DNA of 40,091 bases from positions 1,419 to 41,509 of the IMG/VR virus record IMGVR_UViG_3300029893_000503; one strand, 5' to 3'. The notes under the pieces are model-generated. The model was not told the DNA's origin, did not search any database, and saw only the letters and a list, made by a program, of their open reading frames with translations. The position numbers and the translations under genes were made by a program. Shown here piece by piece: positions 805 to 16,730 of this stretch (within the stretch, counting starts at the first letter, position 1; each line of letters opens with the position of its first letter). Source of the stretch: a virus.

Positions 805-844
805 TTGTTTACAAAAATACGGTATGTCCGTAAAATGTAAACAA
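805..844 (+). promoter_or_regulatory. Promoter inside nested palindromic operator
   Basis: Outer arms TTGTTTACA (805-813) and TGTAAACAA (836-844) are perfect inverted repeats. Inner arms TACGG (818-822) and CCGTA (828-832) form a second dyad around TATGT. A near-consensus sigma70 promoter is embedded: TTTACA at 808-813, exactly 17 bases, then TAAAAT at 831-836. Transcription would start near 842-844, directly before the XRE/ImmA gene. The overlap of dyads and promoter fits autorepression by that gene's HTH domain (inference). The remaining 658-804 interval between the divergent genes holds nothing else I can name. Confidence 0.8.
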
Positions 845-858
845 AGAGGATGCCCAAA

Positions 859-1911
859 ATGTTCGGTGAAAGATTGAAGTTGGCCCGCAAGCGCGCCGGC
901 CTGTCCCTGCGGGGGCTGGCGGAAGCGGTCGACCACGCAGTCAGCGCCCAGGCAATCGGCCGCTACGAACGCGGCGAGATGCTGCCCGGGTCGAGCACCG
1001 CCCTCAAGCTCGCCAAGGCTCTCGGCGTTCAACTGAGCTACCTGTTCAACCCCTCCGAGATTCACCTCGAAGGGGTGGAATTCCGCAAGACGGCGACGAC
1101 CCGCGCCCAGGAACGCGCCATGGTCGAAGCGGCCGTCATCGATCATCTCGACCGCTACCTGCTCGTCGAAGACGTGCTGGAGATCGGCAGTCACGAATGG
1201 GATAAGCCCAAGGGGGCGCCCTTCGAAGTCGCCACCCTCGACGACGCGGAAAACGCGGCCGAACGGGTACGCAAGGCATGGAATCTGGGTGGCGACGCCA
1301 TCCAGAACATGACCGAGCTGCTCGAAGAGCACGGCATCAAGGTGCTCAAGCTCGACTTCCCGCTGTCGGTCGACGGGCTGACCTGCCGGGTGGCGCGACC
1401 GAACAAGGAGAAAGTTCCGGTCATCGTGGGTTCGGTGTCGAAATCGGTGGAACGCCGGCGATTCACCCTGGCCCATGAGCTCGGCCACATGGTCATGGCG
1501 ATCGAGGGTGACCTGGACGAGGAGAAGGCCTGTCAGCGTTTCGCCAGCGCCCTGCTGATGCCGCGCGAAGACCTGCTGTTCGAGGTCGGGCAACGCCGCC
1601 ACGCCTTCGGTTACGCCGAACTCATGCAGATCAAGCGCATGTACGGCGTCAGTGCCGCCGCGCTGATCGTCCGCCTGCGCGACCTCGGCGTCATTACTGA
1701 GGGCACGCTGCAGACTGTGTTTCGCGGCATCGGCCGAACCTGGCGGAAGGCGGAACCCGATCCATTACCGGAAAACGAGGAACCCAAGCGTTTCCAGCGC
1801 CTAGTGCTTCGCGCCCTGGCAGAAGATGTCATCTCACTTCCCAAAGCCGCAGAACTTCTGCGCAAGACCACGAGCGAGGTGAGCCGCATCATGTCGGGGC
1901 CTGCGGAGTGA
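859..1911 (+). CDS. XRE-family HTH / ImmA-IrrE metallopeptidase
   Basis: A 350-residue two-domain protein. Residues 1 to about 62 form an XRE helix-turn-helix (ERLKLARKRAGLSLRGLAEAV with the recognition segment SAQAIGRYERGE). The middle carries the zinc-protease signature HELGH at about 206-210, followed by the EEKACQRFASALLMP stretch typical of ImmA/IrrE (COG2856) proteins. Known family members derepress mobile elements or stress genes by cleaving a repressor, or act as antitoxins. The start is chosen at ATG 859 because AAAGAGG at 843-849 is 9 bases upstream. ATG at 850 abuts that site and would be almost leaderless. The gene is first in a four-gene cassette and probably autoregulated through the palindrome at 805-844. 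Confidence 0.88.
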   Translation: MFGERLKLARKRAGLSLRGLAEAVDHAVSAQAIGRYERGEMLPGSSTALKLAKALGVQLSYLFNPSEIHLEGVEFRKTATTRAQERAMVEAAVIDHLDRYLLVEDVLEIGSHEWDKPKGAPFEVATLDDAENAAERVRKAWNLGGDAIQNMTELLEEHGIKVLKLDFPLSVDGLTCRVARPNKEKVPVIVGSVSKSVERRRFTLAHELGHMVMAIEGDLDEEKACQRFASALLMPREDLLFEVGQRRHAFGYAELMQIKRMYGVSAAALIVRLRDLGVITEGTLQTVFRGIGRTWRKAEPDPLPENEEPKRFQRLVLRALAEDVISLPKAAELLRKTTSEVSRIMSGPAE

Positions 1912-1917
1912 TCCATC

Positions 1918-2427
1918 GTGCTGGTATTGGTAAGCGATGCCTCCATTCTGATCGAGCTTGCAAAATGGTCGCTGCTCGACGCGCTCTTCGAGTTGCCCTT
2001 CGAGTTCGCGGTCCCAGACGCCCTGTTCGAGGACGAGCTCATCGATCTCGGTGAGGTCGACCGCGGGCAACTCATGGAACTGGGTCTGCGGGTCGAATCC
2101 CTGGATGCGGAAGGCATGGCGCGTGCGGTCGCATATCAGACGGCCAAGCCAAAACTCACCATCCACGACTGCCTTGCCGTCACCCTAGCGGTAATCAACG
2201 ACTGGCCACTGCTCACCGGCGACAAGCGTATGCGCACCCTTGCTGACGAGGAGGATGTCGAGGTGCACGGTGTTCTGTGGATCATCGACCGGTTCGCCGA
2301 GCACCGCATCGTGCGCAAGCCAACGCTCGCGAAGGTGCTACGCGGCATGCTGGACGATCCGCGAACACGCCTGCCGCACGCCGAGATCAACAAGCGGCTG
2401 GCCATCTTGACCGCGAAACAAGGGTGA
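1918..2427 (+). CDS. PIN-domain nuclease (probable toxin-type RNase)
   Basis: 169 residues starting at GTG 1918, six bases after the stop of the XRE/ImmA gene. Acidic residues expected of a PIN active site are visible in order: Asp7 (VSDAS), Glu13 (IELAK), Asp84 (IHDCLA) and Asp102 (LTGDKRM). PIN proteins are metal-dependent ribonucleases and are the toxins of VapBC-type systems. No VapB-type antitoxin is adjacent; the upstream XRE/ImmA protein is the natural candidate partner, an arrangement reported for COG2856-linked PIN genes as I recall. The C-terminal 40 residues (about 125-169) are basic and helical. The family call is firm; the toxin role is inferred from context. Confidence 0.85.
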   Translation: MLVLVSDASILIELAKWSLLDALFELPFEFAVPDALFEDELIDLGEVDRGQLMELGLRVESLDAEGMARAVAYQTAKPKLTIHDCLAVTLAVINDWPLLTGDKRMRTLADEEDVEVHGVLWIIDRFAEHRIVRKPTLAKVLRGMLDDPRTRLPHAEINKRLAILTAKQG

Positions 2428-2475
2428 GCGGCCGGCATCGCCGCGCGCAAAGGAATCTATGGGAGACAAGAACGA

Positions 2476-3705
2476 ATGAACGACGCAGAAAACCTCGCCA
2501 AGTTGCTCGGGCACCTCAAGCCTGAGCTGTTTCGCACCTTCATGGCAGACGAATTCGGGGTCGCCATGCCGGCCTCCGAAAAGAAGCAGACGAAGACCGA
2601 ACAGCGCGAAGCCATGGCGGCGGTACTGTCGGCCTTGTCCGTGTCGGAGCGGCAGAAGATCGAAGAGGTGGCCGAGAAAATCATCCTGCTGACCGACGGG
2701 GCGGGCCAGGATGTGGTCGACGGATTCCGGGCCGACATCTTCGACGATGAGGATCGGGCCACCTTCGACGCTTTGCGCGACCAGTACGAGCGGGCCCTGT
2801 GGCTGTACGGCAATGCCGAAGTAATTTTCAAGGAGGCATTGGATGCCCGGCAGGCCGATATATTCCGGCAAAGCGTTTCGTGCTATTCGGGCTTCGTCGC
2901 CCCGACGAACCTCACCATGGCCGCCGACGAGAAGGCGAAGGCGTCTTTCCACGAGAGCGTCGCCCAGCAGCTGGGTTGCGCCAAGGACGATGTCGCCGTT
3001 CAGATCTTCAAACGCCTGCGCCCGAACACGCAGACCGGTGACGACGTCGACCTCTACCAGATCAGCGTCCACCACAATCGACCGCCGGAGATCATCGACT
3101 GTGTGCAGGCCAGCGAACTGGTGGCCCAGGAGGTGATCCGCGCGGTGTCCTCGCACATCACCTACGAGCCGGCCAACGGCCATCTAGAGGTGCTGTCGAA
3201 GGAGACCGACGGCCGTGAGGCACTGGCCCGCATCGCCGCCGATTGCCTGCTGCAGTCTCCGTTCTCGGGAGAGAAGATTCCGCTCAAGCAGTACGACTAC
3301 CAGAGTCTCGCGGCCCCCCGCCACTTCGACCTGTCGGGTGAGAACGTTAGCTCTGTGATGGTGGCCGAGCTTGGCTATTCCGATGCGGGCAGCCGCTCGC
3401 TCGTCGTCAAGGTCGGAGCCAAGGATCCGGACGGAATCCATGCGGCAGCCAAATCGCTGGTCGGCCCGTCGTTCGATTTCCGCCACCACCGTCTGAACTA
3501 CGCCAGGCTCTCGATCCGCCTGAAAAAGGTCGGCAAGGAGCGGGCGCGAACGATCTCGGTCATCCTGCGCGAAGACAACAAGTGCAACATCAAAACCAAG
3601 CGAGAAAAGGATCGCGCCCTGTGCGACCGGCTGCTCGCCAAATGGAAACTCATCAAGGAGATCGGTGTTGTCGTCGCAGCCCCTTTCGACGAAGTCGCTG
3701 CTTGA
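2476..3705 (+). CDS. Unrecognised 409-residue protein of the XRE/PIN cassette
   Basis: The frame begins at ATG 2476 after GGGAGA about 10 bases upstream, 48 bases after the PIN gene. I do not recognise the family. Residues 1-110 look helical and charged (KKQTKTEQREAMAAVLSALS, ERQKIEEVAEKI). The middle has an HHNRPPEIIDCVQ stretch. The C-terminal third is basic (RLKKVGKERARTISVI, NKCNIKTKREKDR), suggesting nucleic-acid contact. No signal peptide, membrane segment, Walker motif or obvious nuclease motif is visible. Codon use looks like that of its neighbours. Its 3' end overlaps the next gene by 41 bases, so the two are probably made together. Confidence 0.8.
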   Translation: MNDAENLAKLLGHLKPELFRTFMADEFGVAMPASEKKQTKTEQREAMAAVLSALSVSERQKIEEVAEKIILLTDGAGQDVVDGFRADIFDDEDRATFDALRDQYERALWLYGNAEVIFKEALDARQADIFRQSVSCYSGFVAPTNLTMAADEKAKASFHESVAQQLGCAKDDVAVQIFKRLRPNTQTGDDVDLYQISVHHNRPPEIIDCVQASELVAQEVIRAVSSHITYEPANGHLEVLSKETDGREALARIAADCLLQSPFSGEKIPLKQYDYQSLAAPRHFDLSGENVSSVMVAELGYSDAGSRSLVVKVGAKDPDGIHAAAKSLVGPSFDFRHHRLNYARLSIRLKKVGKERARTISVILREDNKCNIKTKREKDRALCDRLLAKWKLIKEIGVVVAAPFDEVAA

Positions 3706-4675
3706 GCTGACCGATCTGTTCGAGCGCTCCCGCCAGCCGCTCACAGACATCGAAGGGCAGCGCATTTGCGGCGTTCCCGGCTGGGCTGCCGCGCGCATGA
3801 CGTCCCTGGCGCCCGATGCGATGGAGGGATGGGTCGATTGCGTCGGCTATGCCGGTTCCTTTCCCGCGCCCTGCGGCGATGAGCGCGTTTCCGTCAATCT
3901 CGAAGACGACGACGATCCCTCCCGGTATCGGTATCGATGCCCGGAAACCTTCCGGCTGAAGTATGTCGCGGCCGCGGAGGCAGGAGTCTATGCCGTTCGA
4001 CCTGCTGCGTTTCTTGGCACCGTCGCCGAACTGCTCGCGATCCCACAAGCCCTGCGCAAAGGGATCGATGCGCCCACGATCAACGGCATCCTGTGGAATC
4101 TGGGCAAGGCACGGATCGGCCCGGCGCATACGGACGTTTGGTTCGTGCGTGGCCTCGCGCAGTCGGTGGAGGACGTCTTCCGGCATTTCCATGCACCGAC
4201 ACTGCCGGATCAGGGGCTGATCCTGACATCGGGCCGCCCCTTGCCCGAATTCGTCCGCCCACCCAAGAACTACCGCTTCGCCGCTTTGCGCGACGTGCTC
4301 GTCGATTACGTGACGACCCCCACCCTGGACATGGACTTACTTCACCGTATCCTGGCGGCGCCCGCCGACGGGACGCTTCGCCCGGTCCTGCCGGTGCATT
4401 TCGACGCGTACACCAACACGCTCACCATTCGCAGCAAGAGCAACAAGCCCTGGGTGATCAAGGGCGAGCGTCAAGCAGCAGCGGTTCGGTATATGTACGA
4501 GCAGGCCCTGAACAACCGTTGGTTGCTCCCGGCCGGGGAAATACTGGCCGCCGCTTACCCCGACAAGCCGACCGCGCGCAGCCAGCGCATGCAGAACCTC
4601 TTCAGCGGCAACACCGAGTTGGACGACTACATCTCCAATCCCGAGAAGGGCAAGTACGGGTTCCGTCTCGACTGA
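3665..4675 (+). CDS. Unrecognised 336-residue protein, last gene of cassette
   Basis: Translation can begin at GTG 3665 or TTG 3668. AAGGAG at 3655-3660 gives spacings of 4 or 7 bases, so TTG 3668 is slightly favoured. It overlaps the preceding gene by about 41 bases in another frame. No family is recognised. The N-terminal 60 residues look helical. The middle contains NYRFAALRDVLVDYV. The C-terminal part (WVIKGERQAAAVRYMYEQAL ... ILAAAYPDKPTARSQRMQNLFSG ... YGFRLD) has the look of a winged-helix or other small DNA-binding fold, which is a guess. An intrinsic terminator follows 31 bases after the stop, closing the cassette. Confidence 0.78.
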   Translation: MLSSQPLSTKSLLELTDLFERSRQPLTDIEGQRICGVPGWAAARMTSLAPDAMEGWVDCVGYAGSFPAPCGDERVSVNLEDDDDPSRYRYRCPETFRLKYVAAAEAGVYAVRPAAFLGTVAELLAIPQALRKGIDAPTINGILWNLGKARIGPAHTDVWFVRGLAQSVEDVFRHFHAPTLPDQGLILTSGRPLPEFVRPPKNYRFAALRDVLVDYVTTPTLDMDLLHRILAAPADGTLRPVLPVHFDAYTNTLTIRSKSNKPWVIKGERQAAAVRYMYEQALNNRWLLPAGEILAAAYPDKPTARSQRMQNLFSGNTELDDYISNPEKGKYGFRLD

Positions 4676-4705
4676 CGCCAACCGGCTGCCGTCAATGATC
4701 CGCAC

Positions 4706-4727
4706 AACCGCCTCCAGGCGGTTTTTT
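4706..4727 (+). terminator. Intrinsic terminator of the cassette
   Basis: A perfect 7-bp stem AACCGCC / GGCGGTT with loop TCCA runs directly into a T-tract (4722-4727). It follows the last cassette gene by 31 bases and precedes the early operon. With the promoter at 808-836 it makes 808-4727 a self-contained transcription unit. Confidence 0.88.
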
Positions 4728-4762: not shown

Positions 4763-4809
4763 GCCCGTACATCGGCCCGTACATGGCGGTGGCGGACGCC
4801 CGCACATCA
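4763..4809. repeat. Three copies of a GCCCGTACATSG-like 12-mer
   Basis: GCCCGTACATCG (4763-4774) and GCCCGTACATGG (4775-4786) are in tandem. A third copy with two changes from the first, GCCCGCACATCA, is at 4798-4809. They sit upstream of the first early gene, where an operator would be expected. The 4728-4860 gap holds no other feature I can support. A regulator-binding role is a guess. Confidence 0.35.
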
Positions 4810-4860
4810 TGAATCCGACACTGGCCTCACGTTTTCGCAACCACCCGAAAGGAGAAAAAC

Positions 4861-5073
4861 GTGAGTATCAAACACCTCAACCAACGGCAACTGGCCGACC
4901 GTTGGGGCGTCAGCGAAGCCACCTTGGAACGCTGGCGCTCCGAAGGAATCGGGCCGGTTTTTCTGAAAATCCAGGGGCGCGTGCTCTATCGCGTCGAGGA
5001 CGTCGAGTCCTACGAAGCGGACTGCCTGCGCAAGAGCACCTCCGAGCGCGCCAGCGCGGGAGGTGTCGCATGA
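4861..5073 (+). CDS. Small helix-turn-helix (excisionase/AlpA-like) protein
   Basis: 70 residues from GTG 4861, with AAAGGAG about 6 bases upstream. Residues 5-50 (NQRQLADRWGVSEATLERWRSEGIGP ... RVLYRVEDVESYE) are a typical helix-turn-helix with a short wing as in excisionase, AlpA and MerR-like small DNA-binding proteins. It is first in the early rightward operon and its stop overlaps the next start (ATGA at 5070-5073). It may be an excisionase, an early regulator or a replication initiator. Which one cannot be told from sequence alone, since no integrase lies in the window. Confidence 0.8.
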   Translation: MSIKHLNQRQLADRWGVSEATLERWRSEGIGPVFLKIQGRVLYRVEDVESYEADCLRKSTSERASAGGVA

Positions 5074-5824: not shown

Positions 5825-6678
5825 GCCTCCCCATCATCTCCGCCGACCAGCGCTTGGCGGAAAAGCGCGGCGTGAAAGGCGTGCTGGTCGGCAAGAGCGG
5901 CATCGGCAAGACCTCGCAGCTCTGGACCCTGGCGCCCGAGGCGACCCTGTTCTTCGACCTCGAGGCCGGCGACCTCGCCGTCGAGGGCTGGGCCGGCGAC
6001 ACGATCCGGCCGCGCACCTGGCAGGAGTGCCGCGACTTCGCGGTGTTCATCGGCGGCCCGAATCCGGCGCTACGCGACGACCAACCCTTCAGCCAGTCCC
6101 ACTTCGACGCGGTCTGCGCGCGCTTCGGCGACCCGTCCGCGCTCGACCGCTACGACACCGTGTTCGTCGACTCGATCACCGTCGCCGGGCGTCTGTGCCT
6201 GCAATGGTGCAAGGGTCAGCCGCAGGCCTACTCCGAGAAGACCGGCAAACCGGACACCCGCGGCGCCTACGGCCTGATGGGTCAGGAGATGATCGCCTGG
6301 CTCACCCACCTGCAGCACACGCGCGGCAAGAACGTGTGGTTCGTCGGCATCCTCGACGAGCGCTTGGACGATTTCAATCGCCGCGTCTTCCAACTGCAGA
6401 TCGACGGCTCCAAGACCGGGCTCGAGCTGCCGGGCATCGTCGACGAGGTGGTGACGCTGGCCGAGCTCAAGGCCGACGACGGCAGCGCCTACCGTGCCTT
6501 CGTCTGCCACACGCTCAACCCGTGGGGCTACCCCGCCAAGGATCGCTCCGGCCGCCTCGACCAGATCGAGGAGCCGCACCTCGGCCGACTGATGGCCAAG
6601 ATCGCCGGCCCGGCCCGCCCTGCCCACGAACGCCTCGACTTCGCGCGTCCAGCGCCTTCCGAACCCGTACAGCAATAA
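5821..6678 (+). CDS. Sak4-like RecA-fold ATPase
   Basis: 285 residues from ATG 5821 (ATGA overlap with the upstream gene). Walker A is GKSGIGKT at 24-31 and a Walker B-like strand TVFVDSI has its Asp at about 117. The domain is short, without the accessory domains of cellular RecA. This architecture fits phage single-domain RecA-like ATP-binding proteins (Sak4 group), which promote single-strand annealing with an SSB partner. The next gene looks like such a partner. The alternative is a generic phage nucleotide-binding AAA protein. The last 25 residues are Pro/Ala-rich and probably disordered. Confidence 0.78.
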   Translation: MSLPIISADQRLAEKRGVKGVLVGKSGIGKTSQLWTLAPEATLFFDLEAGDLAVEGWAGDTIRPRTWQECRDFAVFIGGPNPALRDDQPFSQSHFDAVCARFGDPSALDRYDTVFVDSITVAGRLCLQWCKGQPQAYSEKTGKPDTRGAYGLMGQEMIAWLTHLQHTRGKNVWFVGILDERLDDFNRRVFQLQIDGSKTGLELPGIVDEVVTLAELKADDGSAYRAFVCHTLNPWGYPAKDRSGRLDQIEEPHLGRLMAKIAGPARPAHERLDFARPAPSEPVQQ

Positions 6679-6690
6679 GGAGCTATGACC

Positions 6691-7287
6691 ATGAGCTATT
6701 TCGATTTCAACGATGCCAACGAGCAATCCTCTTTCGACCTGATCCCCAAGGGCACGCTGGTGCGCGTGCGCATGACCGTCCGCCCGGGCGGTTTCGACGA
6801 TGCGAGCCAGGGCTGGACGGGCGGCTACGCCACCCGCAATGACAACACCGGCTCGGTGTACCTCAACTGCGAATTCGTGGTGATGGAGGGCGAGTACGCC
6901 CGCCGCAAGATGTGGTCGCTGATCGGCCTCTACAGCCCGAAGGGCCCCGAGTGGGCCAACATGGGTCGCGCGTTCGTCAAGGCGATCCTGAACTCCGCCC
7001 GCGGCGTCCATCCGGGCGACGCGAGTCCCCAGGCCCAGAATGCCCGGCGCATCGCCGGCTTCGCCGACCTCGACGGCATCGAGTTCCTCGGCAAGGTCGA
7101 CTGGGAGAAGGACCAGAACGGCCAGGACAAGGCTGTCATCAAGCAGGCGATCCAGCCCGACCACAAGGACTACGCCGCGCTGATGGGCAACGCGCGCCCG
7201 TCCGCCCCGGCGCCCGCGACGCCGAACGCCTATGCCCAGGCCACCGGTCGCGCTCCGGTCACGGGCCGTCCGAGTTGGGCGCAGTAA
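6691..7287 (+). CDS. Putative ssDNA-binding protein, partner of the ATPase
   Basis: 198 residues from ATG 6691. AAGGAG at 6677-6682 is 8 bases before this ATG but only 2 before the alternative ATG at 6685. Residues 1-115 are rich in beta-strand patterns (GTLVRVRMTVRPGG, GSVYLNCEFVVMEGEYARRKMWSLIGLYS) as in OB folds. The C-terminal 40 residues are Pro/Ala-rich and end in PSWAQ rather than the acidic tip of bacterial SSB. Phage proteins of this type are usually found beside Sak4-like ATPases. The SSB role is an inference from fold pattern and position. Confidence 0.65.
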   Translation: MSYFDFNDANEQSSFDLIPKGTLVRVRMTVRPGGFDDASQGWTGGYATRNDNTGSVYLNCEFVVMEGEYARRKMWSLIGLYSPKGPEWANMGRAFVKAILNSARGVHPGDASPQAQNARRIAGFADLDGIEFLGKVDWEKDQNGQDKAVIKQAIQPDHKDYAALMGNARPSAPAPATPNAYAQATGRAPVTGRPSWAQ

Positions 7288-7300
7288 GGGGGCCGCCGTC

Positions 7301-8977
7301 ATGATGCTTCGTCCCCGCCAGGCCCTGCTGGTGGAGCGCTCGCTCGCGGCGCTGCGCCAGCACGGCAACACCCTGGCCATCGGTCCCACCGGTTCGGGCA
7401 AGACCATCATGCTGTCGGCGGTCGCCGGCGGCGTGCTGGAGGAGCTCGACGCGAAGGCCTGCATCCTCGCCCACCGCGACGAGCTCACCGCCCAGAACCG
7501 GGCGAAGTTCGGCCGGGTCAATCCGGGCGTCGTGACCTCGGTGTTCGACGCCAGGGAGAAGTCCTGGGCGGGCCGCGCCACCTTCGCGATGGTGCAGACG
7601 CTCTCGCGCGACACTCATCTCGAGGCGATGCCCATGCTCGATCTGTTGGTGGTCGACGAGGCGCATCACGCTGCTTCGCCGTCCTACCGACGCGTGATCG
7701 ACCGCGTGCTGTCGCGCAACCCGAAGGCGCTGATCTTCGGCGCCACTGCCACGCCTGCACGCAGCGACGGCAAGGGGCTGCGTGAGGTCTTTAGCAACGT
7801 GGCCGACCAGATCACCCTGGGCGAGCTCATCGCCTCCGGCCATCTGGTGCCGCCGCGCACCTTCGTCATCGATGTTGGCGCGCAATCGGCCCTCGCCCAG
7901 GTGCGCCGCACCGCCACCGATTTCGACATGAACGAGGTCGAGGCGATCCTCAACAGGACGCCGATCACCGACGCGGTGATCCGTCACTGGCGCGAGAAGG
8001 CGGGTGAGCGCAAGACCATCGTCTTCTGCTCGACCGTGGCGCACGCGCAGTGCGTGGCCGACGCCTTCCTCGCCGCCGGCATCCGCGCCGTACTGATCCA
8101 CGGTGAGCTGTCGGACGCCGAGCGCAAGGCGCGGCTCGCCGAATACGAGACCGGCGAGGCGCAGGTCGTCGTCAACGTGGCGGTGCTGACTGAAGGCTAC
8201 GACTACACGCCCACCTCCTGCGTGGTGCTGCTGCGCCCGAGCTCCCACAAGTCGACGCTGACCCAGATGATCGGGCGGGGGCTGCGCACCGTCGATCCGG
8301 CCGAGCATCCCGGCATGGTCAAGACCGATTGCATCGTTCTGGATTTCGGCACCGCGACGCTCATGCACGGCTCGCTGGAGCAGGAGGCCAACCTGGACGG
8401 CCACCAGCACCAAGGCGAGGCGCCGACCAAGGAGTGCCCCTCCTGCGAGGCGATGGTGCCGCTCGGCTGCCGCGAGTGTCCGCTGTGCGGCTTCGAGTGG
8501 GCCATTGATCCGGCCGAGCAGGCGGAAGCCATGGACGACTTCGTCATGACGGAGATCGACCTGCTCAAGCGCTCCAACTTCCGCTGGTGCGATCTCTTCG
8601 GCTGCGACGACGCCTTGATGGCCACCGGCTTCGGCGCCTGGGGCGGCGTCTTCTTCCTGAACGGCCGCTGGCACGCGGTCGGCGGCGGCAAAGATCTGCC
8701 GCCTCGTCTGCTGGCGGTCGGTGATCGCACCGTCTGCATGGCGAAGGCGGACGACTGGCTGAACGAGAACGAGTCCCTCGACACCGCCCACAAGACCCGC
8801 CGCTGGCTCAACGAGCCGCCTACCGAGAAGCAGTTGCGCTACCTGCCGCAGGCTGTGCGCGCCGATTTCGGACTCACCCGTTACCAGGCATCGGCGCTGC
8901 TCGCCTTCCAGTTCAACAAGTCGTCCATCCAGCGCCTGGTGCTGGCGGCCAACGATGAACACCGGAGGGCAGCTTGA
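7301..8977 (+). CDS. SF2 DEAH-box helicase with C-terminal zinc finger
   Basis: 558 residues; ATG 7301 (or 7304). Motifs appear in order: Walker A GPTGSGKT (28-35), DEAH (119-122), motif III GATATP (about 147-152), FCSTVAHAQ, TEGYD and motif VI QMIGRGLR (about 322-329). These define a complete ATP-dependent superfamily 2 nucleic-acid translocase of the type found in phage replication clusters (RadD/UvsW-like). A Cys4 zinc-binding segment CPSC...CRECPLC follows at about 379-401. The C-terminal 150 residues, containing WLNEPPTEKQLRYLPQAV, are family-typical but unnamed. The stop overlaps the next start as TTGA. It likely remodels forks or recombination intermediates. Confidence 0.93.
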   Translation: MMLRPRQALLVERSLAALRQHGNTLAIGPTGSGKTIMLSAVAGGVLEELDAKACILAHRDELTAQNRAKFGRVNPGVVTSVFDAREKSWAGRATFAMVQTLSRDTHLEAMPMLDLLVVDEAHHAASPSYRRVIDRVLSRNPKALIFGATATPARSDGKGLREVFSNVADQITLGELIASGHLVPPRTFVIDVGAQSALAQVRRTATDFDMNEVEAILNRTPITDAVIRHWREKAGERKTIVFCSTVAHAQCVADAFLAAGIRAVLIHGELSDAERKARLAEYETGEAQVVVNVAVLTEGYDYTPTSCVVLLRPSSHKSTLTQMIGRGLRTVDPAEHPGMVKTDCIVLDFGTATLMHGSLEQEANLDGHQHQGEAPTKECPSCEAMVPLGCRECPLCGFEWAIDPAEQAEAMDDFVMTEIDLLKRSNFRWCDLFGCDDALMATGFGAWGGVFFLNGRWHAVGGGKDLPPRLLAVGDRTVCMAKADDWLNENESLDTAHKTRRWLNEPPTEKQLRYLPQAVRADFGLTRYQASALLAFQFNKSSIQRLVLAANDEHRRAA

Positions 8978-9330
8978 TATGCGCGATCTGCGGACGGGAG
9001 GGACGTGGCTTTTGCTGGATATCGCCGAGAAACGGCCCGCGCACGCCGAAAGGCAAGCGGCTGTTCAGGCGCTTCTGCTCCATGCGCTGCATGGACATCC
9101 ATCTGCAACGACTGAACGAGGGAGACGGCGTCGTGATCGATCCCACCCATAACGAGAAGGCCGCGATAGAGGCCGTGCTGCCGCATCTCGGCGAGTACGT
9201 CGCCTCCATCGGCATGAACCGGCCGCTGTCGGACTACAGCCGTGCGGAGGTCCTGCAACTGGTCGACGTGGTGCTCACCGCCTACTTCGACAACCTGCGT
9301 GAGCTCACGCCCGACGATGTGCCGTTCTGA
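8974..9330 (+). CDS. Small zinc-finger protein (DUF6511-like)
   Basis: 118 residues from TTG 8974, chosen because this frame gives MICAICGREG and GGAGGG lies 4 bases upstream. The TTG overlaps the helicase stop. Two cysteine pairs (CAIC near residue 3 and CSMRC near 35) make a probable zinc-binding knuckle. The C-terminal half is helical (YSRAEVLQLVDVVLTAYFDNLREL) and ends in an acidic DDVPF tip resembling SSB-type protein-interaction tails. The DUF6511 resemblance is from memory. Function unknown; probably a replication accessory factor. Confidence 0.75.
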   Translation: MICAICGREGRGFCWISPRNGPRTPKGKRLFRRFCSMRCMDIHLQRLNEGDGVVIDPTHNEKAAIEAVLPHLGEYVASIGMNRPLSDYSRAEVLQLVDVVLTAYFDNLRELTPDDVPF

Positions 9331-9340
9331 GGGGGTGGCC

Positions 9341-10108
9341 ATGCTCGATTACAACCACCGCCCCAAGTTCCACGAGCGCGTCGCTACCGTCATCGACGAG
9401 GCGCTGGCGCGTGAACGTACCTCACAAACGCCGCGCCGGTATCTCGGCGCCTCACGGCTCGGTGTGACCTGCGAGCGCGCGCTGCAATACGAATACGCAC
9501 AGGCCCCCGTCGATCCCGGCCGCGAGTTGCCCGGGCGAGTGCTTCGGGTGTTCGAGGTCGGTCATGCCCTGGAGGATCTGGCGATCCGATGGCTGCGCCT
9601 GGCCGGCTTCGATCTCTACACGCGCAAGGCGGATGGCGGGCAGTTCGGGTTTTCCGTCGCCGGCGGCCGCATCCAGGGACACGTTGACGGCATCCTGGCC
9701 GCGGGCCCTGCCGACATTGAGGTCGACTTCTCCATGCGTTGGCCCGCGCTGTGGGAGTGCAAGACGATGAACGACCGGGCGTGGCGCGAGACCGTCAAGC
9801 AGGGCGTGGCCCGCGCCAAGCCGATCTATGCCGCCCAGATCGCCGTCTACCAGGCCTACATGGAAGGCGCGGTGCCGGGCATCGCGAGCAGTCCCGCGCT
9901 CTTCACCGCCATCAACAAGGACAGTCAGGAGATCTGGTTCGAGCTCGTGCCGTTCGACGGCGGGCTCGCGCAGCGCATGTCGGACCGGGCCGTGCGCGTC
10001 ATCACCGCCACCGAGTCGGGCGAGCTGCTGCCCCGGCACGCCACCACGCCGACCCACTTCGAGTGCAAGTCGTGTCCCTGGCAGGACCGCTGCTGGAGAC
10101 CGGCTTGA
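9341..10108 (+). CDS. Cas4/RecB-like PD-(D/E)XK nuclease with Fe-S cysteines
   Basis: 255 residues from ATG 9341. Nuclease motifs: Asp116 in GHVDG and Glu139-Cys-Lys141 in WECKTM. Four cysteines occur at 44 (VTCERALQ), 242, 245 and 251 (CKSCPWQDRC), the Cx(n)CxxCx5C spacing of the iron-sulphur clamp in Cas4 and AddB nucleases. Such phage enzymes resect or trim DNA ends. Position between the helicase/zinc-finger pair and the primase-helicase fits end processing for annealing-type recombination with the Sak4-like ATPase. There is no CRISPR array or other cas gene nearby, so a CRISPR adaptation role is not supported. The stop and next start overlap as TGATG. Confidence 0.87.
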   Translation: MLDYNHRPKFHERVATVIDEALARERTSQTPRRYLGASRLGVTCERALQYEYAQAPVDPGRELPGRVLRVFEVGHALEDLAIRWLRLAGFDLYTRKADGGQFGFSVAGGRIQGHVDGILAAGPADIEVDFSMRWPALWECKTMNDRAWRETVKQGVARAKPIYAAQIAVYQAYMEGAVPGIASSPALFTAINKDSQEIWFELVPFDGGLAQRMSDRAVRVITATESGELLPRHATTPTHFECKSCPWQDRCWRPA

Positions 10109-12291
10109 TGGCAGACGTCATTTGGCTCGATTACAACGACGCCCCCGAGCAGCATGGCGAGACGCCCTCCGACACCGAGGCGTTGCGCCGAGGACTACTC
10201 GACCGACTAGAGGCCGTGCTGCTCTACCTGTTTCCGCATGGCCGCATCCGAGGCGGCAAGTTTTATGTCGGCGACGTCGACGGCAATCCCGGCAAGAGCC
10301 TGGTGGTCGAGATCGAGGGCGAGCGGCGCGGTCTGTGGAAGGACTTCGCCTCCGACGAAGGCGGTGATGTCATCGATCTATGGTCGCGCTCGCGCGGTCT
10401 TTCCGCCCGGCACGACTTTCCCCGCCTCGCAGACGAGATCCGTCGATGGCTCGGCCTCGCACCGCCCATCGGCCGCGCGAAGCCATCGGATGTCCGCAGC
10501 GCAGCGGTCGACGAGCTCGGCCCCTACACTGCGAAGTGGGATTACCTCACGGCGGACGGTCGCCTCATCGCCTGCGTCTACCGCTACGACCCGCCCACTG
10601 GGAAGGAATACCGACCCTGGGACGTGCGCGCCCGCATGTGGCGCGCCCCCGACCCGCGTCCGCTCTACAACCTGCCGGCGGTCGCCAAGGTCAACGAGGT
10701 CGTGCTGGTCGAGGGCGAGAAGGCGGCTTCCGCCCTGATCGGTGCCGGCATCACGGCGACCACGGCTATGAACGGCGCGCGGGCCCCGGTCGAAAAGACC
10801 GACTGGTCGCCGCTTGCCGGCAAGCGCGTGCTGATCTGGCCGGATCGCGATGCCCCGGGCTGGGACTACGCGGAGAACGCCGCCCGTGCCTGCGTGACGG
10901 CGGGCGCGGCGTCGGTCGCCATCCTCGTGCCGCCCACCGATAAGTCCGACAAGTGGGACGCGGCCGACGCCGTGGCCGAGGGCTTCGATTGCGCCGAGTT
11001 CATTCGTGAGGGCGAGCGCAGGGTCGTGAAGACAGCCGCCCCTACGCTCCCGACCTTCACCCTGGGCATGCTGCTGGACGACGACTCGCCGCCGCCAGCG
11101 GATCTCGTCGCGCCCCGCGTGCTCACTCCCGGCGGCCTGCTCGTATTCGGTGGTGCCCCCAAGGTCGGCAAGAGCGACTTCCTGCTGGCCTGGCTCACGC
11201 ACATGGCCGCGGGCGCGACCTTCCTCGCCATGACGCCGCCGCGCCCGCTGCGGGTGTTTTATTTGCAGGCCGAAGTCCAGTACCACTACCTGCGCGAGCG
11301 CGTGAAGGACGTGCGCCTGCCATCACACCGGCTTTTGGATGCTCGCGCCAACTTCGTCGCCACACCGCAGTTGCGGCTGGTGCTCGATGACGCGGGACTG
11401 GCGCAGGTGATCCCGGCGATCGCGCAGGCTTTCGGCGGCGAGCCTCCCGACATCATCGCCATCGATCCGATCCGCAACGTGTTCGATGGCGGCGACGCCG
11501 GTGGCGAGAACGACAACGGCGCCATGCTGTTCTTCCTGTCCCAGCGGGTGGAGCGCATTCGCCAGGCAGTGAATCCGGACGCCGGCGTCATCCTCGCCCA
11601 CCACACCAAGAAGCTCGGCAAGAAGCAGTTCGAGGAGGACCCGTTCCAGGCACTGGCCGGCGCGGGAAGTCTGCGCGGCTACTACTCGACCGGGATGTTG
11701 TTGTTCAGGCCCGACGAGACCAGAACGACCCGCCAGCTGATCTTTGAGCTGCGCAACGGCGCAGGTATCCCGCAAAGGCATGTCGACAAGATCAACGGCG
11801 AGTGGCGCGAGGTCGATGCCAACGAGCGGCTGGTGATGAAGGACTACGGCGAGCGCTTGGATGCCGAGCGCCGCCGCAAGCGCGACGCCATCCTGCAGAT
11901 CCTGTTCGACGAGGCGGCCCAGGGGCGCTGCTACACCGCCAACCAGTTTGCAGAAAGCTTCGAGGGCAAGGCGGGGCTGGGCGGCGAGCGCACCATCCGC
12001 GAGCGCCTCTCCGCGCTCTCGACGCAGGGCTACATCAAATATTTCCGCAACGCTGCGGACTACGGTCTGCCGTCAAGCGGCCGCACCAAGTTCGGCTATC
12101 TCTGCGTCGAAGGCATGGTGCTGCGCATGCCAGCGGGCGAAGTCGACACGGCCACCGGCGAGTTGCCGATGCGCGAGTACACGGTGCTCCCGACCCACTA
12201 CAAGTGCCCGCATTCCGGCGCCTCGATGCCTGTCGAGAACCCCGAGGTGTGGGTCTACCACGACGAACTGAACGACCCGGAGGCCTCATGA
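10108..12291 (+). CDS. TOPRIM primase fused to RecA-fold (RepA/DnaB-type) helicase
   Basis: 727 residues from ATG 10108. The N-terminal 200 residues include a CHC2-less primase-like part (GKFYVGDVDGNPGKSLVVEI, GERRGLWKDFASDEGGDVIDLW). A TOPRIM domain follows with VEGEKAA (Glu at about 202) and PDRDAPG. The RecA-fold ATPase has Walker A GGAPKVGKS (348-356) and Walker B DIIAIDPI (Asp at about 453), with an AHHTKK stretch after it. The C-terminal part has a winged-helix-like region around AQGRCYTANQFAE. It is the central replication protein of the element, expected to prime and unwind DNA at the origin, for which the repeat block at 12308-12566 just downstream is the natural candidate. Confidence 0.88.
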   Translation: MADVIWLDYNDAPEQHGETPSDTEALRRGLLDRLEAVLLYLFPHGRIRGGKFYVGDVDGNPGKSLVVEIEGERRGLWKDFASDEGGDVIDLWSRSRGLSARHDFPRLADEIRRWLGLAPPIGRAKPSDVRSAAVDELGPYTAKWDYLTADGRLIACVYRYDPPTGKEYRPWDVRARMWRAPDPRPLYNLPAVAKVNEVVLVEGEKAASALIGAGITATTAMNGARAPVEKTDWSPLAGKRVLIWPDRDAPGWDYAENAARACVTAGAASVAILVPPTDKSDKWDAADAVAEGFDCAEFIREGERRVVKTAAPTLPTFTLGMLLDDDSPPPADLVAPRVLTPGGLLVFGGAPKVGKSDFLLAWLTHMAAGATFLAMTPPRPLRVFYLQAEVQYHYLRERVKDVRLPSHRLLDARANFVATPQLRLVLDDAGLAQVIPAIAQAFGGEPPDIIAIDPIRNVFDGGDAGGENDNGAMLFFLSQRVERIRQAVNPDAGVILAHHTKKLGKKQFEEDPFQALAGAGSLRGYYSTGMLLFRPDETRTTRQLIFELRNGAGIPQRHVDKINGEWREVDANERLVMKDYGERLDAERRRKRDAILQILFDEAAQGRCYTANQFAESFEGKAGLGGERTIRERLSALSTQGYIKYFRNAADYGLPSSGRTKFGYLCVEGMVLRMPAGEVDTATGELPMREYTVLPTHYKCPHSGASMPVENPEVWVYHDELNDPEAS

Positions 12292-13944: not shown

Positions 13945-13979
13945 CTGCAAACCTAGGTTTGCAGGGTTTGCAGTTTGCA
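13945..13979. promoter_or_regulatory. 20-bp perfect palindrome plus TTTGCA repeats
   Basis: CTGCAAACCTAGGTTTGCAG (13945-13964) is a perfect palindrome. GGTTTGCAG is repeated directly at 13956-13964 and 13965-13973, and another TTTGCA follows at 13974-13979. This is a textbook layout for a dimeric regulator's operator. In the gap 13691-14052 it is preceded by a GC-rich stretch ending in TTTTTT (13930-13935). I see no convincing -35/-10 promoter pair nearby. Which protein binds is unknown; the adjacent DUF6362-like HTH protein is the obvious candidate. Confidence 0.6.
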
Positions 13980-14004
13980 CCCGCCCATCCAGCACGTATC
14001 ACGA

Positions 14005-14042
14005 GCCCGCCCACGGTTTCCCGTCGGCGGGTTTCCTTTTTT
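14005..14042 (+). terminator. Intrinsic terminator just before the methyltransferase genes
   Basis: GCCCGCC (14005-14011) pairs with GGCGGGT (14026-14032; the loop-distal end is G-T wobble), with an inner ACGG/CCGT pairing, followed by TTTCCTTTTTT. It ends only about 11-14 bases before the probable start of the next gene, so that gene must be read through or antiterminated, or be transcribed from a promoter overlapping the hairpin. Confidence 0.6.
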
Positions 14043-14055
14043 CGAGGAACTGATT

Positions 14056-15465
14056 CTGAACACGCTCAACGTCGAGTACCGCAAGGTCGAGGCGCTGATC
14101 CCCTATGCCCGCAATCCGCGCACGCACACCGACGAGCAGGTGGCCAAGATCGCCGCCAGCATCGTGGAGTACGGCTGGACGAATCCGGTCCTGGTGGATG
14201 GTGACAACGGCATCATCGCCGGTCACGGCCGCATGGCCGCCGCGCGCAAGCTGGGACTCGATGAAGTCCCGGTGATCGAACTTGCTCATCTGTCACCGTC
14301 ACAGAAACGCGCCTACGTCATCTCCGACAATCGGCTGGCGCTCGATGCGGGCTGGAACGAGGAACTGCTGGCGCTGGAATTGGCCGAGCTGTCCGACGCT
14401 GGGTACGACCTTGCACTGACCGGCTTCGATGAGACTGAGATCGAGGCATTGCTCGCCGACGACGGCGTCACCGGTGATGCCGACCAGGACGATGACGCCA
14501 ATGCACCGGACGCGGCCGACGACGTGCCGGAAGCACCCATGGTGCCAGTGTCCCGCACCGGCGATGTCTGGGCCATCGGGCCGCACCGCATGATCTGTGG
14601 CGACGCCACCGATCCGACCGTGGTCGCCGCTCTGATGCAGGGTGACTTGGCACGGCTGTGCTTCACCTCGCCGCCCTACGGCAATCAGCGCGACTACACC
14701 TCCGACGGCATCGCCGACTGGGATGGCCTGATGCGCGGCGTGTTCGCCAAGGTGCCAATGGCGGACGACGGACAGGTGCTGGTCAACCTCGGGCTGATCC
14801 ACCGTGACAACGAAGTCATCCCGTACTGGGACGCGTGGCTCGGCTGGATGCGTACACAAGGCTGGCGGCGCTTCGCGTGGTACGTCTGGGATCAGGGGCC
14901 GGGGATGCCGGGCGACTGGGCGGGCCGCTTCGCGCCGAGCTTCGAGTTCGTTTTCCACTTCAACCGCCAGAGCCGCAAGCCGAACAAGATCGTGCCCTGC
15001 AAGCACGCCGGCCAGGAATCACATCTGCGTGCCGATGGCTCATCCACGGCAATGCGCGGCAAAGATGGCGAGGTCGGCGGCTGGACGCACAAGGGCCAAC
15101 CGACACAGGACACCCGGATTCCTGACTCGGTGATCCGGGTGATGCGCCACAAGGGCAAGATCGGGCAGGACATCGATCACCCAGCCGTATTCCCGGTGGC
15201 GCTGCCAGAGTTCGTGATCGAGGCCTACACCGAGGCCGGTGACATCGTGTTCGAACCCTTCGGCGGCAGCGGGACCACGATGCTGGCTGCACAGCGCACC
15301 GGTCGTGTGTGTCGCAGCGTCGAGATCGCGCCGGAGTATGTGGACGTCGCCATCAAGCGCTTCCAGCAGAACCACCCCGGTGTGCCCGTCACGCTGTTGG
15401 CCACTGTCCAGTCCTTCGACGAGGTGGTCAACGAACGTCTGGCCACCATGGGGGCCGCGCAATGA
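14056..15465 (+). CDS. ParB-like domain / DNA methyltransferase fusion 1 (SPPY type)
   Basis: About 469 residues. The N-terminus (EALIPYARNPRTHTDEQVAKIAAS, IAGHGRMAAARKLG) is a ParB/sulfiredoxin-type domain. The C-terminal methyltransferase has motif IV TSPPYG (SPPY at 14668-14679) and the AdoMet-binding motif FGGSGT (15259-15276) after it, the beta-class order. SPPY is more typical of N4-cytosine enzymes, DPPY of N6-adenine. The start is uncertain: no ATG, GTG or TTG lies between the terminator and the first conserved residues. GAGGAA at 14044-14049 points to CTG 14056 or ATT 14053. TTG 13975 would translate through the terminator. It may protect phage DNA from restriction or modify regulatory sites. 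Confidence 0.85.
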   Translation: MNTLNVEYRKVEALIPYARNPRTHTDEQVAKIAASIVEYGWTNPVLVDGDNGIIAGHGRMAAARKLGLDEVPVIELAHLSPSQKRAYVISDNRLALDAGWNEELLALELAELSDAGYDLALTGFDETEIEALLADDGVTGDADQDDDANAPDAADDVPEAPMVPVSRTGDVWAIGPHRMICGDATDPTVVAALMQGDLARLCFTSPPYGNQRDYTSDGIADWDGLMRGVFAKVPMADDGQVLVNLGLIHRDNEVIPYWDAWLGWMRTQGWRRFAWYVWDQGPGMPGDWAGRFAPSFEFVFHFNRQSRKPNKIVPCKHAGQESHLRADGSSTAMRGKDGEVGGWTHKGQPTQDTRIPDSVIRVMRHKGKIGQDIDHPAVFPVALPEFVIEAYTEAGDIVFEPFGGSGTTMLAAQRTGRVCRSVEIAPEYVDVAIKRFQQNHPGVPVTLLATVQSFDEVVNERLATMGAAQ

Positions 15466-16730
15466 CCGCCTCCTGGTTTGCCGACAAGATCGAGCAATGG
15501 CCGACAGCCAAGCTGCTGCCCTATGCCCGCAACGCACGCACCCATTCAGACGATCAGGTGGCGCAGATCGCTGCGTCGATTGCCGAATTCGGCTTCACCA
15601 ACCCGATCCTGGCAGGCAGCGATGGCGTCATCGTCGCCGGGCACGGGCGGCTGGCCGCTGCACAGAAACTCGGATTGGAAGTGGTGCCGGTGGTCGTGCT
15701 CGATCACCTGACGCCGACCCAGCGCCGAGCACTGGTCATCGCGGACAACCGCATCGCTGAAAACGCCGGGTGGGACGACGCGATGCTGCGCATCGAGATC
15801 GCTGCCCTGCAGGACGACAACTTTGACCTGTCGCTCACCGGCTTCGATGCCGACGCGTTGGCCGAGTTGATGGCTGGCGACGAGCCAGATGCTGAGGGCG
15901 AAACCGACGACGATGCTGTGCCCGAGATCAGTGAGAGGCCAATTTCACGCCCGGGTGACGTTTGGCTACTCGGCGGTCACCGCCTGCTGTGCGGTGACTC
16001 CACCGTGGCCGAAAGCTACGACCGGGTTCTCAACGGCGATCCGGTGGACATGGTCTTCACCGACCCACCGTACAACGTGAACTACGCCAACAGCGCCAAG
16101 GACAAGATGCGCGGCAAGGATCGCGCGATCCTGAACGACAACCTCGGTGACGGCTTTTACGACTTCCTGCTGGCGGCTTTGACGCCAACCATTGCGCACT
16201 GCCGGGGCGGGATCTACGTGGCGATGTCCTCCAGTGAACTCGACGTGCTGCAGGCCGCATTCCGTGCTGCCGGTGGCAAGTGGTCGACGTTCATCATCTG
16301 GGCCAAGAACACCTTTACGCTGGGTCGTGCCGACTACCAGCGCCAATATGAGCCGATCCTCTACGGCTGGCCCGAAGGCGCGCAACGTCACTGGTGTGGC
16401 GACCGCGATCAGGGCGACGTCTGGCACATCAAGAAGCCGCAGAAGAACGACCTGCACCCGACCATGAAGCCGGTGGAGCTGGTTGAGCGCGCGATCCGCA
16501 ATTCGAGCCGACCCGGCAACGTGGTGCTCGACCCCTTTGGCGGTTCCGGCACGACGCTGATCGCCGCCGAGAAGTCAGGGCGGTTGGCGCGGCTGATCGA
16601 ACTCGATCCGAAGTACGTGGATGTAATCGTGCGCCGCTGGCAGGACTGGACAGGCAAGCAGGCCACCCGAGAGTCGGATGGCGTGTTGTTCGATCAGGCG
16701 ACCAGCGATTCCTCGACGATCTCGCAGTGA
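15462..16730 (+). CDS. ParB-like domain / DNA methyltransferase fusion 2 (DPPY type)
   Basis: 422 residues from ATG 15462, overlapping the previous stop (ATGA). The N-terminus repeats the ParB-like domain of its neighbour (LLPYARNARTHSDDQVAQIAAS, VAGHGRLAAAQKLG), so the two genes are tandem paralogues. Motif IV is DPPY (16062-16073) and motif I FGGSGT (16536-16553), again beta-class order. DPPY predicts N6-adenine methylation. The segment between the motifs differs from fusion 1, so a different target site is likely. The 3' end overlaps the convergent gene at 16694-17062 by 37 bases. No cognate restriction endonuclease gene is seen. Confidence 0.88.
   Translation: MTASWFADKIEQWPTAKLLPYARNARTHSDDQVAQIAASIAEFGFTNPILAGSDGVIVAGHGRLAAAQKLGLEVVPVVVLDHLTPTQRRALVIADNRIAENAGWDDAMLRIEIAALQDDNFDLSLTGFDADALAELMAGDEPDAEGETDDDAVPEISERPISRPGDVWLLGGHRLLCGDSTVAESYDRVLNGDPVDMVFTDPPYNVNYANSAKDKMRGKDRAILNDNLGDGFYDFLLAALTPTIAHCRGGIYVAMSSSELDVLQAAFRAAGGKWSTFIIWAKNTFTLGRADYQRQYEPILYGWPEGAQRHWCGDRDQGDVWHIKKPQKNDLHPTMKPVELVERAIRNSSRPGNVVLDPFGGSGTTLIAAEKSGRLARLIELDPKYVDVIVRRWQDWTGKQATRESDGVLFDQATSDSSTISQ

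Follow-up and report, generated by a model that had tools for sequence, protein, structure and literature searches.

A transcription unit of four genes (P1-P4), at positions 805 to 4727 of a 40,091-nucleotide stretch of viral DNA, was found to consist of two joined modules and not of one conserved gene set. The stretch, referred to as the window, covers positions 1419-41509 of the 41,509-base IMG/VR virus record IMGVR_UViG_3300029893_000503. P1-P2 pairs a putative repressor carrying an ImmA-type peptidase domain with a PIN-domain protein, while P3-P4, two proteins that lack annotation in the main family libraries, are the conserved part. The reading favored here, to which a probability of roughly 0.6 is assigned, is that of a lysogeny control region built from two exchangeable modules, in which loss of P1 would release the PIN protein together with P3-P4 and P4 would activate the excision and replication operon that follows. 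The function of P3-P4 and of the triple direct repeat that co-varies with P4 is not described in the libraries and literature listings searched.

The unit, encoded like all the features of this paragraph on the plus strand, begins with an operator/promoter at 805-844, where the palindrome TTGTTTACA-N22-TGTAAACAA lies over a promoter-like site (808-836) with a -35 hexamer TTTACA (808-813) and a -10 hexamer TAAAAT (831-836) separated by 17 bp, and encloses an inner inverted repeat (818-832). P1 (850-1911, 353 amino acids) is an RmrA-like protein in which an XRE helix-turn-helix is fused to an ImmA/IrrE (M78) metallopeptidase. P2 (1918-2427, 169 amino acids), a putative RNase toxin and partner of P1, starts 6 bases past the end of P1, and is followed by P3 (2476-3705, 409 amino acids) and P4 (3665-4675, 336 amino acids, GTG start), whose reading frames overlap by 41 bases. 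A hairpin at 4706-4727, the intrinsic terminator, closes the unit, and a terminator-like hairpin with a T-run is also visible past P4 in most of the related loci printed. The palindrome-covered promoter, the four packed genes and the terminator are all at the positions given in an earlier note on this DNA. Beyond the terminator lie three direct repeats, two copies of CCCGTACAT (4764-4772 and 4776-4784) and one of CCCGCACAT (4799-4807), then a -10-like hexamer GACACT (4817-4822) 9 bp past the third repeat, and the first gene of the next operon, which encodes an excisionase-like HTH_17 protein (4861-5073; Pfam HTH_17, 2.2e-7; PHROG excisionase and transcriptional regulator, 2.9e-8).

According to the proposed mechanism, P1 would repress its own promoter through the GTTTACA/TGTAAAC palindrome and probably restrain the PIN nuclease P2, the pair standing where most relatives have a divergent XRE + ImmA pair. 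P1 may be inactivated in response to a signal, for which DNA damage or the entry of foreign DNA is the likeliest candidate, with the ImmA domain acting by self-cleavage or as a sensor, upon which the PIN protein, presumably toxic, and P3-P4 would be made together and the lytic programme would start. P4, probably with P3 as a co-factor, would bind the three head-to-tail repeats by means of its PhoB-like winged helix and would then activate, in preference to repressing, the excision/replication operon. A regulatory role of P3-P4 in the phage appears better supported than one in toxicity or exclusion, because P4 has a predicted DNA-binding fold and co-varies with the repeats placed before the next operon.

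The conservation of P3-P4 behind different control modules was established by a survey of their relatives. Those of P3 were found at 43 IMG/VR loci and at 36 loci of a species-level genome set, and those of P4 at 26 IMG/VR loci. P4 follows P3 in 42/43 and 32/36 of the P3 loci, respectively; it was not found beside P3 in L037, L088, L095, L101 and L102, several of which are at contig ends or carry a broken P3. For the upstream side 91 loci were sorted, 72 of which retain the start of P3 together with 1.7 kb or more of upstream DNA; these counts include near-copies (e.g., L002, L068 and L079) and are not independent. P1-P2 stand in front of P3-P4, in the same direction, in six of the 72 (the window, L002, L068, L079, L124 and L125) and are absent from the other 66. 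A divergent ImmA-type gene, identified via the peptidase half of P1, is found in front in 59 loci, or 60 with the XRE + ImmA pair recognized by eye in L026. The XRE neighbor was inspected in L043, L031, L026, L122 and L123, and in L043 the pair matches Pfam (HTH_3, 4.9e-11; M78, 2.7e-18). A third kind of control module, an S24/LexA-like repressor (6250-6879; Pfam, 1.2e-27), precedes P3-P4 in the Limnohabitans locus L098. In this way P3-P4 come first among the early genes, behind repressor modules that are unrelated to one another. Among the distinct upstream regions of the divergent loci, a loose TTGACA-like/16-18/NANNWT promoter pattern directed toward P3 is present in 56/56 and a TTCGG..CCGAA palindrome in 52/56, as would be expected if the XRE protein repressed P3-P4 directly. 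The four module states require 5 changes on the best tree, built from 58 P3 proteins, and P1-P2 appear there at two places.

Searches of Pfam, PADLOC and NCBIfam gave nothing for P3 or P4 up to E 1, a tblastn search of 50,697 phage records was empty for both, and comparison with the sequences of solved structures gave no relative (best E 0.057 and 1.8, respectively). P3 matches a single PHROG, phrog_37634, which has no assigned function (5.6e-28), and P4 matches none. The AlphaFold model of P3 is weak (mean predicted local distance difference test score, pLDDT, 74.9; predicted template modeling score 0.45; 57.8-64.4 for the other four models) and consists of a helical N-terminus and a beta domain. 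Its top Foldseek match is RdgC (E 3.1e-4, with a TM-score of only ~0.2). In VIA-align, ranks 1-15 all go to chains of the inner kinetochore, either CENP-N/Chl4-like or CENP-L/Iml3-like (Z 8.2-6.5), and RdgC comes next (Z 6.0), a Z of about 8 being one that can reflect a common arrangement. The fold matches agree with one another, since a likeness of Chl4/Iml3 to RdgC and TBP is described in print (PMC4080450). As far as a moderately sure model allows, the beta domain of P3 may resemble the RdgC / CENP-N-CENP-L fold. CENP-N begins with a death-fold domain; residues 1-70 of P3 (window 2476-2685) show a CARD likeness (ARC, VIA-align Z 4.5) that is too weak to claim. The literature listings showed no conspicuous paper on P3-P4 or on a CENP-N relative from prokaryotes, which is no proof of absence.

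For P4 (mean pLDDT 87.0), the C-terminus models as a winged helix of the PhoB/OmpR type. VIA-align aligned it with CovR (Z 8.0, root-mean-square deviation 3.2, 90 aligned) and VanR (Z 7.9), and the first 29 ranks are all taken by DNA-binding domains of the response-regulator, ToxR/CadC or AfsR type, at Z values near the level that is possibly common; with the whole of P4, Foldseek retrieved nothing at E 0.001 or better. P4 is a putative operator-binding activator, with P3 as its likely partner.

The candidate target of P4 are the three direct repeats, which in close relatives also lie between the terminator and the next gene. Their spacing is 12 and 23 bp in 79/80 loci according to a scan that mildly preferred this spacing, and in 40/40 among the loci listed by a spacing-neutral scan; the score of the window triplet was equaled by 0/1000 shuffles. 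Counting from the first base of the third 10-mer as 0, position 20 is A and position 24 is T in 53/53 distinct segments, and these invariant bases are positions 2 and 6 of the -10 hexamer. The promoter past the repeats has this -10-like hexamer and no evident -35, and the repeats are on the -35 side, the layout of PhoB-type activation at the pho-box. Within a locus the repeat copies change in concert, to CCCCCACAT in L024 and L026, CCCATACAT in L090, CCAGTACAT in L099 and CCCCCATAT in L098.

Changes in the repeats are accompanied by changes in P4. Covariation was examined in 65 loci (66 distinct ones minus L025, with a truncated P4; L040 and L121 were dropped earlier). CC at repeat positions 5-6 occurs with lysine at P4 residue 314 in 4/4 loci, and serine occupies this position in 61/61 others; residue 311 is D, D, E and H in the four CC loci and N or S elsewhere. 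No other column among the 323 variable ones of P4 is both fixed and exclusive, and none of the variable columns of P3 (330) or of the next gene (55) separates the CC loci from the rest. In the P4 model residue 311 is inside, and residue 314 just past, a helix (309-312) that precedes the C-terminal hairpin. L090, a sister of L009 and L024 on the tree, has serine in P4 and T at repeat position 6. A natural swap is provided by L009 and L004, in which P3 (95%), the next gene (97%) and the leader (50/50 bases) are nearly or fully identical, while P4 is 46% identical and all three repeats differ. From this covariation and the structure model, P4 is predicted to bind the triple repeats. Other candidates were rejected as readers or determinants of the repeats: the HTH_17 protein of the next gene is 94-99% identical in six pairings of L009/L024 with differing repeats (81% in L026-L080), P3 is 90-96% identical in those same pairs, and the repeat is not determined by the P4 type alone (~50% vs. 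70% identity to the window), as the L004-type P4 retains CCCGTACAT.

P3-P4 might instead bind the repeats as a replication initiator or as a second repressor, and this alternative to an activator, which we regard as unlikely, counts against the favored reading. Direct repeats (iterons) are typical of plasmid and phage origins, RdgC, the nearest Foldseek fold of P3, is a DNA-binding protein according to its entry title, and recombination and replication genes lie downstream. However, repeat 3 is placed 9 bp before an invariant -10-like hexamer that lacks an evident -35, as in PhoB-type promoters, and the terminator parts the two units, so that the downstream operon needs its own start.

The P1-P2 module is well defined by its proteins and its operator. 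P1 matches Pfam HTH_3 (7.5e-14) and Peptidase_M78 (3.3e-15), and its HExGH motif (H209, E210, G212 and H213) is kept in 30/30 aligned relatives; in PADLOC, residues 7-350 match RmrA, the antitoxin of RosmerTA (2e-58). The acidic residues of P2 are conserved in 28/28 (D7 and D102) or 27/28 (E40 and D84) aligned relatives, though its match to Pfam PIN is weak (E 0.0016, below the Pfam cut-off). The description of P1 as a helix-turn-helix joined to an ImmA/IrrE protease, and of P2 as a PIN protein with intact acidic residues, made in the earlier note, is borne out by these data. GTTTACA-N22-TGTAAAC has one copy in the window (0/100 shuffles) and its arms cover the -35 and the -10. Across 30 loci of P1 relatives, exact GTTTACA..TGTAAAC is present in 21 and a copy with one mismatch in 4; the remaining five comprise 3 perfectly symmetric variants, 1 near-symmetric variant (L159) and 1 locus without the palindrome (L127). 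P3-P4 should answer to P1, because P1 is the only recognized repressor-type gene, being the sole HTH_3 match over the cut-off and the sole M78 match in the 41.5-kb record, where S24 has no match, and because no promoter-like site other than that of P1 was found on the plus strand from 600 to P3.

Relatives of P2 were searched in 321 genomes of the class of Ectothiorhodospira shaposhnikovii, in plasmids and, by tblastn, in the 50,697 phage records, with no match in the latter. The genomes contain 20 matches (in 19/321), 17 of which have an adjacent P1-like gene and only 2 of which are followed by P3-P4, within flanks of ~1.5 kb that in some cases reach contig ends. Among plasmids, 49 records carry P2 relatives, and in 9/9 inspected loci (picked from the best-scoring matches, not at random; three are from Sulfitobacter) P2 comes after an XRE/ImmA gene, with immune-type genes directly beside the pair. 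These neighbors were checked with PADLOC in L148, L149, L151, L154, L155 and L156 (ten proteins), and are known by annotation only in L150, L152 and L153. In L148 (NZ_CP069372.1, 2401-4495) P1-P2 diverge from a multiubiquitin-E2-ThiF operon, whose E1 matches E1-E2 (9.3e-12) and whose multiubiquitin protein has no PADLOC match. The pair adjoins nucleotidyltransferase and SLATT genes in L149, L150, L152 and L153, nucleotidyltransferase and AAA ATPase genes in L151 and L154, and a CBASS operon with HORMA and AAA genes in L155; PADLOC models identify CBASS cyclases in L149, L151, L154 and L155 (1.2e-193 to 4.5e-127), a CBASS effector in the SLATT protein from L149 and TRIP13 in the ATPases of L151 and L155. 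In L156 (NZ_CP005085.1, 3933-10474) the pair is directly upstream of, and co-directional with, a TerB / SngB-like ATPase / helicase set that looks Shango-like, its ATPase matching SngB of Shango (4.4e-177). An extra operator half-site occurs between the operator of P1 and the divergent operon in 7/8 plasmid gaps. Judged by these comparisons, P1-P2 is a portable RosmerTA-like pair. Chromosomal copies were seen by eye near AbiE-like, DarT/macro-domain and HsdM/HsdR-like genes (L164, L169, L159, L160 and L163).

This distribution, together with the RmrA match, suggests a second explanation, in which P1-P2 would be a RosmerTA-type defense or addiction cargo that guards the lysogen from other phages and P3-P4 would be expressed by read-through, without P1 acting as the lysogeny repressor. 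The RosmerTA of Gordonia phage Kita is reported to defend against phages (PMC10440598), and on plasmids the pair lies beside CBASS, Shango-like and multi-ubiquitin genes. We consider this explanation somewhat unlikely, as the pair occupies the position of the repressor pair of the relatives, no other XRE, M78 or S24 gene was recognized in the record, and the only plus-strand promoter-like site found from 600 to P3 is that of P1.

The interpretation that had been put forward in the earlier note, a self-contained four-gene toxin-antitoxin or phage-exclusion system of a new type with P3 and P4 as extra effectors, is now highly improbable. The four genes do form one operon in six loci, which occupy two positions in the best tree of P3, and exclusion genes are common in the early regions of prophages. 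Nevertheless, P1-P2 are missing from 66/72 P3 loci and P3-P4 follow only 2/20 P2 matches, so the co-occurrence survey went against a single system, showing the separate occurrence that the earlier note itself had named as refuting it, and P4 has a predicted DNA-binding fold and tracks operator repeats. Although the unit is framed as a transcription unit, its gene set is not conserved and its probable target repeats lie outside 805-4727. What survives of that proposal is the XRE-ImmA + PIN part, a real and portable toxin-antitoxin-like pair, and not P3 and P4 as its effectors. The statement that the last two proteins match nothing holds for the three family libraries, with phrog_37634 as the exception for P3, and the profile and structure searches that had been suggested led to candidate folds, RdgC/CENP-N-like for P3, with moderate model confidence, and PhoB/OmpR-like for P4.

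Comparison with described systems places the two modules near several of them. ImmR/ImmA switches consist of an XRE repressor and ImmA that head the early genes of integrative elements and prophages; the same order is seen in the phage relatives (Pfam, L043), whereas here the output would be a two-protein regulator acting on a second promoter and not excision genes directly. As in PhoB/OmpR activators, the C-terminus of P4 is a predicted winged helix and head-to-tail repeats lie on the -35 side of a promoter; in contrast to them, P4 has no receiver domain match in Pfam, its N-terminal part is unmatched, the spacing is 12/23 bp and it is paired with P3. RdgC and CENP-N/CENP-L (Chl4/Iml3) are the top-ranked solved folds for the modeled beta domain of P3, a model of moderate confidence, but show no sequence similarity to it. 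With RosmerTA, in which ImmA antitoxins paired with PIN-like domains are reported (NetFlax node D25) and RmrT toxins vary among systems (PMC10440598), the window pair shares the RmrA match with XRE helix-turn-helix and ImmA domains, the adjacent toxin-like gene and an occurrence in phages and immune neighborhoods; it differs in its location at a phage repressor position, at the head of an operon that continues into phage regulators, and is known here from sequence. CapH+CapP is described as controlling adjacent immune operons after DNA damage (PMC13373217). It, too, sets a helix-turn-helix repressor and a peptidase of the ImmA type beside CBASS and Bub-like operons, a likeness to which the half-sites in the plasmid gaps add, but there the two functions are separate genes, whereas P1 is one fused protein that comes with a PIN nuclease; moreover, the genes past P2 are P3-P4 in the window and not an immune operon, although plasmid relatives do adjoin immune-type operons. 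By analogy, P1 may work like CapH+CapP without being classed as CapH+CapP. VapKSC, a CapK/CapS-like pair with a VapC RNase in which the sensor pair drives the PIN nuclease (PMC13373217), similarly couples a damage-type sensor module to a PIN-domain nuclease, with kinase/STAS proteins there and XRE-ImmA here; no homology is claimed.

Besides the weak P3 model, the level of the VIA-align scores, the preference of the first spacing scan and the poor PIN match of P2, several observations weigh against a lysogeny control region of exchangeable modules. No repressor module was recognized in front of P3-P4 in 5/72 loci (L030/L084, L036/L087 and L067), and in L067, where P3-P4 are 91-95% identical to those of the window, there is none in the contig. 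The supported branches of the P3 tree force only one P1-P2 place, L124 being a long branch. Origins of the CC type are few, with 4 changes on the best tree of which supported branches force 2, and the independent-pairs sign test gives p 0.5 and, with 2 pairs on supported branches and 4 on all, cannot reach significance. As a control, 63 comparable four-row sets including the real one were compared, and only the real set has an exclusive P4 column within 300-318; one other set has such a column outside this range (A68). P4 and the repeats are also neighbors, and one recombined piece could carry both without any binding; the recurrence of K314 argues against carriage by a single recombination. 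Finally, in L122, a distant locus judged by eye, P3-P4 face away from the early genes, which are found across the repressor pair and not behind P3-P4.

Distant pairs were recovered by a profile search of the 321 genomes, 10 of which have P3 relatives; in the distant pairs P3 has 14-25% identity. In L117, L119 and L121 the pair is beside a recombinase and before excisionase-like and Sak4-like genes (named by eye), and L120 appears by eye to be another kind of element. There (8335-10648) the genes next behind the pair look AlpA-like and, in the case of a large one, primase-like, with type I restriction-like genes nearby, perhaps a satellite-type element that employs the same regulators. A plasmid of Candidatus Tenderia electrophaga (L065; CP013100.1, 371-17354; 7812-12493) encodes a P3 relative (29%) along with one of P4 (hhalign probability 95.6, E 1.1e-8). 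Directly behind them, on that strand, come Multi_ubiq (1.6e-34), Prok-JAB (weak, 0.0054, below the cut-off) and ThiF/E1 (9.1e-35) genes, and no XRE/ImmA gene is among the ten neighbors scanned with Pfam. In its P4-Multi_ubiq gap the triplet attcacac, tttcacac, attcacac, at 12 and 21 bp, reaches a score attained by 0/1000 shuffles, the plain 12-bp pair being weaker (18/1000 shuffles as good). L117 has a weaker triplet of other letters (7/1000 shuffles as good), and no such triplet was found in L121. Both window modules have relatives beside ubiquitin-like operons, in different organisms (L148 for P1-P2 and L065 for P3-P4).

Judged by its recombinase, excisionase-like, replication, terminase, portal, head and tail genes, the source of the window is a temperate-type tailed phage with a serine recombinase. 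A DUF2924 gene and the serine recombinase (Pfam Resolvase/Recombinase) are on the minus strand at the left end of the record, and past the HTH_17 gene come a Sak4-like protein, a primase/helicase, two ParB-like/methyltransferase genes, terminase, portal, major head and tail genes. The P1-P4 unit lies between the recombinase and the early genes, so that recombinase, putative repressor and excisionase-like/early operon are side by side, as in a lysogeny control region. In a megablast search of 20 kb of the window against phages, the sole match was a methylase in three records of Acidithiobacillus phage AcaML1. Genomes that carry relatives include those of Thermomonas, Luteimonas, Pseudomonas, Cupriavidus and others, the records being mostly proteobacterial. 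Two successive genes, at 13975-15465 and 15309-16730, both of ParB-like and DNA methyltransferase families (phrog_498) and with overlapping open reading frame ends, are perhaps a tandem duplication.

A broader view can be offered tentatively, as a possibility that falls short of being probable. P3-P4 may be the first recognized member of a general class of "released activators", RdgC/CENP-N-fold and PhoB-like proteins that would read triple repeats before the next operon, be it for prophage lysis or for the multi-ubiquitin genes of Tenderia, with damage-sensing modules (XRE-ImmA-PIN, XRE + ImmA or LexA-like) swapped in front. XRE-ImmA-PIN is also found beside CBASS, Shango-like and ubiquitin-like operons, so prophage and immune switches may share one pool of parts. 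If the favored reading is true, two conserved unannotated phage proteins would gain a testable job, with their DNA target and a specificity residue both predicted, and prophage induction would be linked to the proteins that control CBASS and ubiquitin-like immune operons, since the same repressor-protease-nuclease module stands before both. Should P3 prove to have the RdgC/CENP-N fold, this fold, known chiefly from the kinetochore, would have a prokaryotic setting in phages.

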